NCBI RefSeq assembly: GCF_010726245.1
Contig: NZ_AP022561.1
Coordinates: 2,108,001-2,172,000, forward strand
DNA length: 64,000 nt
Source: Mycolicibacterium aichiense
Lineage (GTDB): Bacteria; Actinomycetota; Actinomycetes; Mycobacteriales; Mycobacteriaceae
Direction of reading: 5' to 3'
A program made the position numbers and the translations under genes. Positions within the stretch are counted from its first letter, which is position 1. The number at the start of each line of letters is the position of its first letter. Under the pieces are notes generated by a model. The model ran no database searches, was not told the DNA's origin, and saw only the letters and a list, made by a program, of their open reading frames with translations. This document shows, in pieces, positions 36,156 to 63,929 of the stretch.

Positions 36156-36180
36156 CGCCTGGCGGCTAGAGTGCTGCACA

Positions 36181-36243
36181 GGTGTGCCGGGAAGTCTGGT
36201 CGGCGTTAGCTTTTCCTTGCCCGTCGATGTCTTTAGGAGACTG
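36181..36243 (+). ncRNA. Conserved antiporter leader element (candidate riboswitch) before nhaA
   Basis: The 24 bases 36181-36204, with core GCCGGGAAGTCTGGTCGGC, are identical to bases 62622-62645 before the other Na+/H+ antiporter gene in this window. GCCG and CGGC can close a small stem. AGTCT inside the core (36193-36197) can pair with AGACT at 36238-36242, which overlaps the AGGAGA ribosome site. This suggests a switch between two structures that governs translation of nhaA. The identity and pairing are seen in sequence; the regulatory role is inferred. The arrangement resembles known antiporter riboswitches such as nhaA-I, but I cannot confirm that consensus. Confidence 0.55.
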
Positions 36244-37566
36244 GTGGCCGACCGCAAGCCGTATCTCGCCCGCGCGCTGTTCGCACGGGGATCGTGGTCG
36301 GAGACCTCGCGCATCAGCTCGATCCTGCGCAAGGAGACCGTCGGCGGTGCGCTGCTGCTGGTGGCTGCGGCGATCGCCCTGATCTGGGCGAACTCACCCT
36401 GGTCGGAGGCTTACCACCGGCTCGGGCAGGTCCACGTCGGGACCGACCGGCTGGGCCTGCACCTGGATCTGACGCTGGGCGGCTGGGCGGCCGACGGGTT
36501 GTTGGCCGTTTTCTTCTTCATCGTCGGGCTCGAACTCAAACGCGAATTCGTCGCAGGCGATCTGCGCGACCCCGGTCGCGCCGCGCTGCCGATCGCCGCC
36601 GCGGTCGGCGGCATGGTGGTACCGGCAGTGATCTTCGTCTCCTTCACCTTCGGCCAAGGGGACGGTGCGGCGCGGGGCTGGGCCATCCCGACGGCGACCG
36701 ACATCGCGTTCGCGGTGGCTGTGCTGGCCGTCCTCTCCACGCATCTGCCGGCCGCACTGCGCACATTCCTGCTCACCCTGGCCGTCGTCGACGACCTGCT
36801 GGCGATCACGGTGATCGCGGCGTTCTACACCGACAAGATCAATCTGACCGCGCTGCTGATCGCACTGATCCCACTGGCGCTGTTCACGGTGCTGGTGCAG
36901 CGCCGGATCCGGTCCTGGTGGCTGCTGGTCCCGCTTGCCGCGCTGACCTGGGCCTTCGTTCACGAGTCCGGCGTGCATGCGACGGTCGCGGGGGTGCTGC
37001 TGGGTTTCGCGGTGCCGGTCATGCGCAGCGCGGCGGCCGGCGGTCCGGAGGCCGGCCCCGGGCTGGCCGAGCACTTCGAGCACCGGCTGCGGCCGGTGTC
37101 GGCGGGTTTCGCGGTCCCGGTCTTCGCGTTCTTCGCCGCCGGGGTGACCTTCGGCGGCTATGACGGTTTGATAACGGCGTTGTCCGATCCGATCGCGATG
37201 GGCATCGTCGCCGGGCTGGTGGTGGGTAAGACGATCGGGGTGTTCGGCACCACCTGGGTACTCGCCGCGGTGACCCGCGCCCGGCTCGACTCGGCTTTGC
37301 GCTGGGTCGACGTCTTCGGCATGTCGATGCTGGCCGGTATCGGGTTCACGGTGTCCCTGCTGATCGGCGAATTGGCCTACGATCCGGGTTCCGAACGCCA
37401 GGATGTCGTCAAGGTCGCTGTGCTGGCAGGAAGTTTGCTGGCCGCCCTTCTCGCGTCGGTGGTGCTGCGGCTGCGCAACCGGCATTACCGGCTGGTGTGG
37501 GAGCTGGAGAACCGCGACCTCGACCACGATGGTGTCCCCGACATCTACGAGTCTGGACAGGACTGA
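36244..37566 (+). CDS. nhaA: Na+/H+ antiporter NhaA
   Basis: 440 residues from the GTG at 36244, after AGGAGA. Twelve-helix NhaA fold with [31 protein letters not shown] and the ion-binding aspartate pair in [21 protein letters not shown]-like segment reads [18 protein letters not shown]. It exchanges cytoplasmic Na+ or Li+ for external H+. The last 18 residues form a hydrophilic tail [18 protein letters not shown] with a D-x-D-x-D-G calcium-binding-like loop, unusual for NhaA. The preceding leader carries the conserved element. No NhaA gene at this spot is recalled for M. tuberculosis. Confidence 0.93.
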
Positions 37567-62490: not shown

Positions 62491-62621
62491 GAAACTCCTC
62501 CTCACCCCCAGGAATGGTGGCACACGGGCAGTGGTGCTGTCGGGGAACGCGGTTTGCCGGTTGGTGCCGGTGGTACACCCAAGGTTGCCTGCCACCCGCC
62601 TTTACGGCATCTTTACGCGAA

Positions 62622-62696
62622 GGTGTGCCGGGAAGTCTGGTCGGCAGTCGCGCCCGAATGGGCGGTCGACTCGAGCGAAGATGCGGAGACTCAGGC
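62622..62696 (+). ncRNA. Conserved antiporter leader element (candidate riboswitch) before the CPA1 antiporter gene
   Basis: Bases 62622-62645 are identical to 36181-36204 in front of nhaA (core GCCGGGAAGTCTGGTCGGC). AGTCT at 62634-62638 can pair with AGACT at 62687-62691, next to the GGAG ribosome site, as in the nhaA leader. A separate CGCCCGAATGGGCG hairpin (62651-62664) lies between. The rest of the two leaders differs. Presence of the same element before two unrelated antiporter families argues for a shared ion-responsive control; mechanism is inferred. Confidence 0.55.
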
Positions 62697-63929
62697 GTGG
62701 CGCTTGTCCTGGCATTCGGTGTGGTGCTGCTGATCAGTGTCTCGCTGTCCGGTGTGGCGGCCAGGACCGTGCTGTCCACCGCGTTGATGTTCCTGGTGGC
62801 GGGAGCGTTGATCGGCCCGGGCGGATTTGACATCGTCGAGCTGGGCCCCGGGCATGGCATGGTTGCCGCACTGGCGGACATCGCCTTGTTCACCGTCCTG
62901 TTCACCGACGGTCAGCGCGCCAATATGCGTGCGCTGCGCGAGAATTGGCGGCTGTCCGGGCGAGCTCTCGGGCTGGGGATGCCGTTGACGATGGTGGGAA
63001 TCGCGGTTCCGGCACACTTTCTGGCCGGGCTGGACTGGCCCACCGCGTTTCTGCTTGGCGCGATTCTGTCGCCGACCGATCCGGTGTTCGCCGCCGCATT
63101 GGTCGGCCGGTCGGACATCCCGCTGCGATTGCGGCGGTTGCTCAACGTGGAGTCGGGTCTCAACGACGGGCTGGCGCTGCCGTTCGTGCTGATCTTCCTC
63201 GCCACTGCCAAACACGAGAGCTCGCACTGGACCGAGGTTCTCGAGGAGCTCGCACTGGGCCTGGTGCTCGGCTTCGGTATCGCCGCGCTGGTGGCGCTGG
63301 CCTGGCGCAGCAAGATCCTCACTGCCGAACCGCGATTGCAGCCGCTGGGACCGGTCGCCATCGCGGTCGTCGTCTACGCCGGCTGCCACTTGACCCACGC
63401 CAATCCCTATTTGGCCGCTTTCGCGGCAGGGTCGACTCTGGCGACGCTGGACCCGGTGACTGCCGAACGTTTTGAACCCTTTGGCGATCTGTTGGCCGAG
63501 CTCACGAAGTTCGCGGCGCTTTTGGTATTCGGAGCGCTGATCACGCCGGACAGGCTGTCGCACCTGGGTTGGCAGGGCTGGCTGCTGGCGGTGGTGGCAA
63601 TTGTGGTGATTCGCCCGGTGTCACTGCTGGTTTCGCTGCTGCGCACGAAGATGCCGCGGCGCGAACGGCTCACGGCGGCCTGGTTCGGCCCCAAAGGGTT
63701 CGCGTCGGTGGTGTACGGGCTGCTCGCTCTGCAGTCGGGCATACCCGACAACCAGCTGGTCTTCGACCTCGTCGCGGTGACAATCGCGCTGTCGATCGTG
63801 CTGCATTCCTCCACCGACGTACCGGTGGCCAAGTTGCTCCGCGTCGAGCCGCCCGACAATCTGCCGGCCGGCCGGCCTGAGCCCGGTGAACCCGCGGCTG
63901 CCGATCGCAGAGCGCCGGAGTCCGCGTGA
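62697..63929 (+). CDS. CPA1-family Na+/H+ antiporter (NhaP-like)
   Basis: 410 residues from the GTG at 62697, after GCGGAG; the frame is open from 62457, but that part covers the leader. Twelve or thirteen transmembrane helices. Family marks: FLVAGALIGPGGFD, LFTDGQRANMRAL, AILSPTDPVFAAALVG and RLLNVESGLNDGLALPFV, with the TDP and ND ion-site residues of CPA1 antiporters. TAAWFGPKGFASVVYGLLAL is also typical. The C-terminal tail is short and Pro/Ala-rich. It should exchange Na+ or K+ for H+. No counterpart at this position is recalled in M. tuberculosis. Confidence 0.92.
   Translation: MALVLAFGVVLLISVSLSGVAARTVLSTALMFLVAGALIGPGGFDIVELGPGHGMVAALADIALFTVLFTDGQRANMRALRENWRLSGRALGLGMPLTMVGIAVPAHFLAGLDWPTAFLLGAILSPTDPVFAAALVGRSDIPLRLRRLLNVESGLNDGLALPFVLIFLATAKHESSHWTEVLEELALGLVLGFGIAALVALAWRSKILTAEPRLQPLGPVAIAVVVYAGCHLTHANPYLAAFAAGSTLATLDPVTAERFEPFGDLLAELTKFAALLVFGALITPDRLSHLGWQGWLLAVVAIVVIRPVSLLVSLLRTKMPRRERLTAAWFGPKGFASVVYGLLALQSGIPDNQLVFDLVAVTIALSIVLHSSTDVPVAKLLRVEPPDNLPAGRPEPGEPAAADRRAPESA

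Follow-up and report, generated by a model that had tools for sequence, protein, structure and literature searches.

Why should two unrelated Na+/H+ antiporter genes of Mycolicibacterium aichiense begin with the same short sequence? To our knowledge, little is known about Na+ and pH sensing and about antiporter induction in Actinobacteria. White et al. (PMC9337991) note that selective Na+ sensing coupled to gene regulation had been demonstrated for only one bacterial protein. The comparative analysis reported here makes it almost certain that the shared sequence is a genuine regulatory RNA. On comparative grounds we would put at about 0.6 the probability that it is a compact 24-nt cis-regulatory RNA that precedes ion transporter genes and works as an orphan, riboswitch-like sensor.

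A shared element in the Mycolicibacterium aichiense window

The window, a stretch of 64,000 nt, contains AGGTGTGCCGGGAAGTCTGGTCGGC twice on the + strand, at 36180-36204 and 62621-62645. A preliminary description had pointed to an identical 24-nt leader element before two antiporter genes without sequence similarity. Both observations were borne out, and the identity extends by one further A to 25 nt. The gene after the first copy is nhaA (PF06965, E 1.2e-133), and the gene after the second encodes a CPA1 antiporter (PF00999, E 7.6e-45) unrelated to NhaA. No further copies with up to three mismatches were found elsewhere in the window, and 0.00 copies were expected by chance (100 dinucleotide shuffles). 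Across the genome (5.93 Mb), a single 3-mismatch match was detected in addition to the two exact copies, and it was absent from matches to model R1 at E up to 1; the third-best model match in the genome scored 24.5 bits versus 43.1. Features of both leaders are listed in Table 1.

Table 1. Features of the two antiporter leaders, in window coordinates
Feature	Position	Strand	Basis
-10 box TAGAGT, nhaA promoter	36167..36172	+	Sequence; first T 14 nt upstream of G1
RNA element, nhaA copy, GGUGUGCCGGGAAGUCUGGUCGGC	36181..36204	+	Repeat, covariation, 43.1 bits with model R1, -10 spacing
P1 5′ strand GCCG, nhaA copy	36186..36189	+	Pairs with 36201-36204; covariation
Conserved 11-nt loop GGAAGNCKGGU, nhaA copy	36190..36200	+	Alignment of copies
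P1 3′ strand CGGC, nhaA copy	36201..36204	+	Covariation
Shine-Dalgarno AGGAG of nhaA	36235..36239	+	Sequence
nhaA, Na+/H+ antiporter, PF06965, GTG start	36244..37566	+	Profile match
Candidate anti-P1 arm GCCGACCG	36247..36254	+	nhaA codons 2-4; complements element positions 17-24
RNA element, CPA1 copy	62622..62645	+	Repeat, model match
P1 5′ strand, CPA1 copy	62627..62630	+	Pairs with 62642-62645; covariation
P1 3′ strand, CPA1 copy	62642..62645	+	Covariation
Candidate anti-P1 arm GTCGACT, CPA1 leader	62665..62671	+	Complements element positions 18-24
Shine-Dalgarno GGAG of CPA1 gene	62685..62688	+	Sequence
CPA1 (NhaP-type) cation/proton antiporter, PF00999, GTG start	62697..63929	+	Profile match

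Occurrence in Actinomycetota and Chloroflexota

A scan of genome contigs with the inner 21-mer of the element identified at least 120 stretches. Among the matches listed, all were from Actinomycetota except two from Chloroflexota, one in Ktedonobacteraceae (L045) and one in Thermogemmatispora (L102). Positions 1-2 were not part of the query, yet GG occupied them in every one of the 121 copies for which sufficient upstream sequence was available (119 listed 21-mer matches and the two copies of this genome). A copy with up to three mismatches was present in 111 of 396 Actinomycetota genomes, some of which must be chance matches because a reversed control pattern also matched in approximately 10 of the Actinomycetota genomes. 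In addition, matches to model R1 with E values of 0.002 or less were obtained in 13 of 201 Chloroflexota genomes, at 16 loci in total. The element is therefore not restricted to mycobacteria, as had been supposed, and occurs in Actinomycetota and some Chloroflexota. Among plasmid nhaA leaders, that of Streptomyces goshikiensis (NZ_CP108058.1) also matched model R1, with a score of 43.1 bits; no element was found by R1 in a Rhodococcus one, and viral contigs contained no exact match to the degenerate 24-mer.

The pooled set, which includes L045 and L102 and leaves out Chloroflexota loci L250-L273, comprised 266 copies with 46 distinct 24-mers. The consensus is GGNGNGCCGGGAAGNCKGGUCGGC, the conservation of which is inflated because copies were gathered by closeness to it (exact 21-mer or at most 3-4 mismatches); where mismatches were permitted, they fell mostly at positions 3, 5, 15 and 17. 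Collapsing copies whose leaders were more than 75% identical over 60 nt and dropping truncated ones gave 249 leaders, four of which had no usable ORF.

Several genomes had many copies, with nine matches in G123 and seven in G327, two of the latter being identical 3-mismatch hits of doubtful reality. Such genomes could hold a whole salt regulon. Pairs of elements placed back to back on opposite strands, approximately 100 nt apart, were observed at L161/L162 and L179/L181.

A covarying stem at the predicted transcript start

The element can be drawn as a 4-bp stem, P1 (positions 6-9 with 21-24), which closes the loop GGAAGNCKGGU and is preceded by the flank GGNG. Across the 46 distinct sequences, 98.9% of P1 cells were paired. 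Covariation, on which the preliminary description had made its proposal depend, was found in this stem: seven double-change cells were present in three of the four pairs (six if the doubtful row L236 is left out), a number equalled by none of 500 shuffles, and slid controls fell away. Four rows (L155, L174, L215 and L236) had no promoter box by eye and are possibly chance matches; they were retained in alignment A1, and two of them, L155 and L174, were the rows in which a P1 pair was broken. Further compensated variants were seen in L293, L294, L313 and L272 (A-U at 6/24). The U-A pair at 6/24 of L166, L170 and L182, which supplies three of the seven cells, and of L313 was confined to a single genus and a single gene family. 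It may represent one event, which counts against our preferred explanation.

Other structures were also considered. An alternative register (6-10 with 16-20) was 94.8% paired, had no double changes and was no better than shuffles; this register, and not P1, was formed in the predicted free folds of the CPA1 leader and L265. Pattern searches in which P1 was left free yielded fully paired matches in 5 of 100 and 10 of 85 cases, versus 3.3 +/- 1.8 and 6.6 +/- 2.3 by permutation. These matches are mostly chance and alone are no proof of the stem. Directly after the element, few strong stems were found by eye and no consensus emerged, so a conserved hairpin P2 was left out of the model. An upstream ORF reading through the element is unlikely: there was no conserved start codon, and variable positions 3, 5, 15 and 17 had no 3-nt period.

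Of 247 copies, 175 had a TANNNT box whose first T lay 12-15 nt before G1, the distance being 13 nt in 114. Because the -10 box is fixed relative to G1, the element is predicted to form the 5′ end of the mRNA in most cases, with the start at or near G1. The preliminary description had named a transcription start mapped downstream of the element in both genes as evidence against its proposal; the start predicted here is usually at the 5′ end of the element. The nhaA copy follows the spacing rule with its TAGAGT box, and its transcript probably starts at 36181 or within 1-2 nt. The CPA1 copy does not follow the rule; its lack of a clear -10 box counts against our preferred explanation. It is a member of a small subset preceded by TTTACGGCATCTTTAC, which takes the place of the usual box at 62601-62616. 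Close versions of TTTACGGCATCTTTAC were observed upstream of copies in L011, L082, L098 (two), L107 and L176, and possibly correspond to another promoter type. In some Streptomyces nhaA copies, the start is apparently further upstream. The nhaA leaders of L017, L107 and L190 have an ACGCGTC-rich sequence directly before GG, which could form an extra 5′ hairpin, and TANNNT-like boxes further upstream.

Ion transporter genes downstream

The first downstream gene encoded an ion transporter in 184 of the 245 copies with a usable downstream ORF, an enrichment that the preliminary description had expected. NhaA was by far the most frequent class (131), followed by CPA1 (22), Mrp (15), CitMHS/NhaD-like (7), Na+/Ca2+ exchanger (4), P-type ATPase (2), and one each of SulP (an anion transporter family), TrkH and membrane pyrophosphatase; these classes are BLAST clusters named by Pfam on representatives, and one TrkH gene is counted twice, as L206 and L207. 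Such a gene was present within approximately 2 kb in 14 more copies; for example, CitMHS came after a CBS-domain gene in seven of nine cases. The other 47 first genes included 10 DrrA/NatA-like ABC ATPases, four APC-like permeases and a mixture of 33; these 33, with a weak link or none to ion transport, count against our preferred explanation. Chloroflexota downstream genes, which were named by eye from sequence, were not all antiporters; for example, L251 contains the gene of L045, PP2C. Overall, the element is a conserved, structured leader RNA before functionally related genes, as is expected of a riboswitch, and the earlier suggestion of an antiporter-linked leader RNA is supported by both P1 covariation and gene content.

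A DNA operator could in principle account for some of these features. The arms of P1 are an inverted repeat at the predicted transcription start, and the GCCG-N11-CGGC dyad at +6 to +24, with its compensated changes, could be read as the symmetric half-sites of a transcription factor. However, conservation extends to the loop and the GGNG flank, which are asymmetric, 198 of 245 copies have a transporter gene on the downstream, sense side (the side that was counted), and neither the arms near the Shine-Dalgarno (SD) sequence nor the terminator-like hairpins built from the element, both described below, would be expected of an operator. We regard this explanation as highly improbable.

Two predicted, mutually exclusive folds

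It had been suggested that AGTCT in the element pairs with AGACT next to the ribosome site. The words are indeed present (36193-36197 opposite 36238-36242, and 62634-62638 opposite 62687-62691), and the nhaA leader is predicted to form this pairing in its minimum-energy structure. However, the pairing is absent from the structure predicted for the CPA1 leader and is not conserved among leaders: AGACT was found in the first 45 nt of only 4 of 249 leaders, and AGAC in 32 versus 48 expected. This pairing was therefore rejected as a general mechanism.

The more general idea of pairing with the ribosome-site region did find support, through a different strand. Words complementing GGUCGG were enriched in the 45 nt after the element relative to 60 dinucleotide shuffles (CGACC in 80 of 249 leaders versus 38 shuffled; CCGACC in 39 versus 15). 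Duplex energy of positions 17-24 with the following 45 nt was better than in dinucleotide shuffles (t -8.2, 248 leaders), with t -2.1 in a coding-region control window. Pairing of segments 1-8 and 9-16 was slightly better than in shuffles (t -3.0 and -2.2), and that of segments 4-11, 6-13 and 12-19 was worse (t +4.1 to +5.3). Analyses involving the SD drew on those of the 249 leaders in which an SD was recognised and the spacing was suitable (153 and 155 leaders). A strong arm overlapped the SD or ended within 6 nt upstream of it in 62 of 155 leaders, versus 26.0 +/- 4.2 in 40 shuffles (maximum 35); strong arms anywhere numbered 116 versus 94.2 +/- 4.6 shuffled. Predicted downstream pairing of positions 17-24 was 0.763 versus 0.609. 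Because these downstream pairs use the 3′ strand of P1, P1 and the SD-side fold are mutually exclusive. In the window itself, the nhaA anti-P1 arm sits within the coding region, which counts against our preferred explanation, and the CPA1 arm GTCGACT is paired in another hairpin in the predicted fold.

Simple sequestration and release of the SD by folding was unsupported on average. In 153 leaders, mean predicted SD accessibility did not rise when P1 was enforced (0.398 versus 0.452 free), and in this change shuffled spacers did slightly better (t -2.0); a gain of more than 0.3 was seen in 7% of leaders versus 2% shuffled. The free fold was predicted to lie approximately 10 kcal/mol below the P1-enforced, loop-open state, suggesting that P1 needs outside stabilisation.

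A different competing fold was predicted in Chloroflexota, where 12 leaders of the 16 loci were folded (L262-L264 and L272, with very short leaders, were left out). In 10 of the 12 (L250-L253, L266-L270 and L273), the 5′ half of the element formed a terminator-like hairpin of approximately 10-11 pairs with sequence just downstream, the 3′ side being rich in U; L268 provides an example (GGAGUGCCGGG...CCCGGCACUCC-UCUUUUCUUU), and in L252, L253 and L273 the U run was partly inside the hairpin. In L271 the hairpin was built from the loop strand (AGACUGGU/ACCAGUCU) and followed by U-rich sequence, and the fold of L265 contained no terminator-like hairpin. Several of these genomes are apparently close kin, so the number of independent events is smaller than the number of leaders. 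P1 and the terminator-like hairpins are mutually exclusive, so stabilisation of P1 should permit transcription; these predicted hairpins suggest the sign of the switch and are our best clue to it. In three Chloroflexota genomes (L262-L264), only 12-21 nt separate the element from the start of the longest ORF downstream, giving the shortest leaders of the set. With regard to the coupling of alternative folds to gene expression that riboswitches show, the terminator-like hairpins and the SD-proximal arms agree with it, and the modelled SD accessibility does not.

These competing folds bear on a further possibility, that of a constitutive 5′-end element which senses nothing and contributes to mRNA stability, promoter escape or translation enhancement. 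Its usual place at the predicted 5′ end, its initial GG and the independence of predicted SD access from P1 would fit such a role, which is nevertheless very unlikely given the strong bias toward ion transporter genes, the conservation of the loop and the competing terminator-like and SD-proximal pairings.

Comparison with described riboswitches

Antiporter genes of other bacteria are preceded by several riboswitch families, to which the preliminary description had looked for a match. The Na+-I riboswitch (DUF1646 motif) is presumably Rfam family RF03071, named Sodium. An Rfam scan of the window detected no family at its cut-off, and no ion riboswitch was listed at either copy at E up to 10. 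The best sub-threshold match, sR38 snoRNA at the CPA1 copy (17.1 bits, cut-off 50, E 0.048), was taken as chance. The nhaA-I, Sodium and nhaA-II models had no match over the whole genome either. Among 14 control genomes RF03071 found Lactococcus lactis. A model match to nhaA-I (RF03057) together with its two stems, GGGUGC..GCAGGU..UGGUCGGGCCGCCA, was not found; in a control of eight plasmid nhaA loci, nhaA-I was detected in Methylobacterium and Roseomonas (two of six proteobacterial loci). For nhaA-II (RF03038), the lack of a match is a weaker test, no positive control having been matched. The nhaA-I motif was present in 2 of 246 Actinomycetota genomes, as compared with 111 of 396 for the element. 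At one of the loci surveyed, on an Agrobacterium plasmid, a fluoride riboswitch was observed between nhaA and a chloride-channel-family gene (L333:1993-2069).

The Na+-I riboswitch is described as a leader RNA before Na+ transport genes that turns expression on when Na+ rises (PMC9337991), Li+-I (nhaA-I) as occurring mostly before nhaA, with the authors speculating that most members control ribosome access, and Li+-II (nhaA-II) as located before nhaA (PMC9646797). Like Na+-I, the element is a leader RNA of Na+ transport genes; however, Na+-I has a 55-position model with two extended stems, whereas the element has 24 nt, one short stem and a range of Actinomycetota and Chloroflexota. The Li+-I consensus, a GGGUGC-stem-GCAGGU followed by a second hairpin UGGUCGGGCCGCCA, is unlike the element, and Li+-II, which has the nhaA position in common with it, has an 84-position model. 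Two orphan leader motifs are also described in PMC11109978: dauA, found in Streptomyces before a STAS gene as a three-stem junction enclosing the SD, and nqrA-II, found in Pasteurellaceae before a Na+ pump gene with four stems. By these descriptions, both differ from the element in architecture and range.

A divergent member of Na+-I, Li+-I or Li+-II would explain the overlapping gene sets, and the nhaA-I consensus has the 7-mer UGGUCGG and a 5′ GGUG in common with the element. However, a shared word of at least 7 nt arose in approximately 10-13% of shuffles, and the link through this 7-mer was rejected; none of the three models matches; and a single 4-bp hairpin in 24 nt contrasts with models of 55 to 84 positions. 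Membership in one of these three families is most improbable. No description of the element was found in openly licensed PMC papers, whether by sequence or by the topic of antiporter, Na+, Li+ or pH riboswitches. Set against this literature, the element is apparently an undescribed RNA class.

Discussion

Sequence comparison supports the element itself, its stem P1, its place behind the -10 box, its association with ion transporter genes and the existence of competing pairings. Among the mechanisms considered, we favour a direct cation riboswitch, which we regard as probable. Its most likely signal, judged from gene content, would be Na+, since the element is found with Na+ exporter genes and with a few genes for K+ uptake.

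In the mechanism we propose, the leader would alternate between two folds. In the first, P1 (positions 6-9 with 21-24) forms. In the second, the GGUCGGC strand of actinobacterial leaders would pair with a downstream arm, which in many cases adjoins the SD or overlaps it; in most of the folded Chloroflexota leaders, the 5′ half GGNGNGCCGGG would instead combine with a CCCGGC-rich sequence into a terminator-like hairpin. P1 and the loop may be stabilised by Na+ or by a signal coupled to it, for example pH or Li+, and stabilised P1 would block the competing fold and turn the antiporter on, the sign in Actinobacteria being a proposal.

The choice between the two folds could also be made by a salt- or pH-responsive RNA-binding protein for which the hairpin is the site. 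Hairpins bound by proteins typically combine a short stem with a conserved loop, as the element does; it is also very small for an aptamer, its stem is weak, and many different genes are served by one loop. Such a protein would have to be shared by Actinomycetota and Chloroflexota because the loop is common to both, a consideration that argues weakly against this explanation, and we consider it unlikely overall.

A more specific version of the cation riboswitch is tentative, and we rate it slightly below even odds: a 24-nt 5′-terminal Na+ aptamer that would be among the smallest riboswitch aptamers, represent a structurally unrelated class of alkali-cation sensor, and serve as a general salt-response switch of Actinobacteria and Chloroflexota on translational and terminator platforms. 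If true, its targets would include the genes for NhaA, NhaP, Mrp, NhaD-like proteins and the Na+/Ca2+ exchanger and, in a few cases, those for SulP and K+ uptake. Should our preferred explanation hold, the sensor would be named, and a salt regulon outlined in Streptomyces, mycobacteria, Microbacteriaceae and others. Structural studies of Na+/K+ discrimination by RNA would also gain a very short model. Because the element resembles a tiny ion-responsive switch, it could reveal how these bacteria sense salt.
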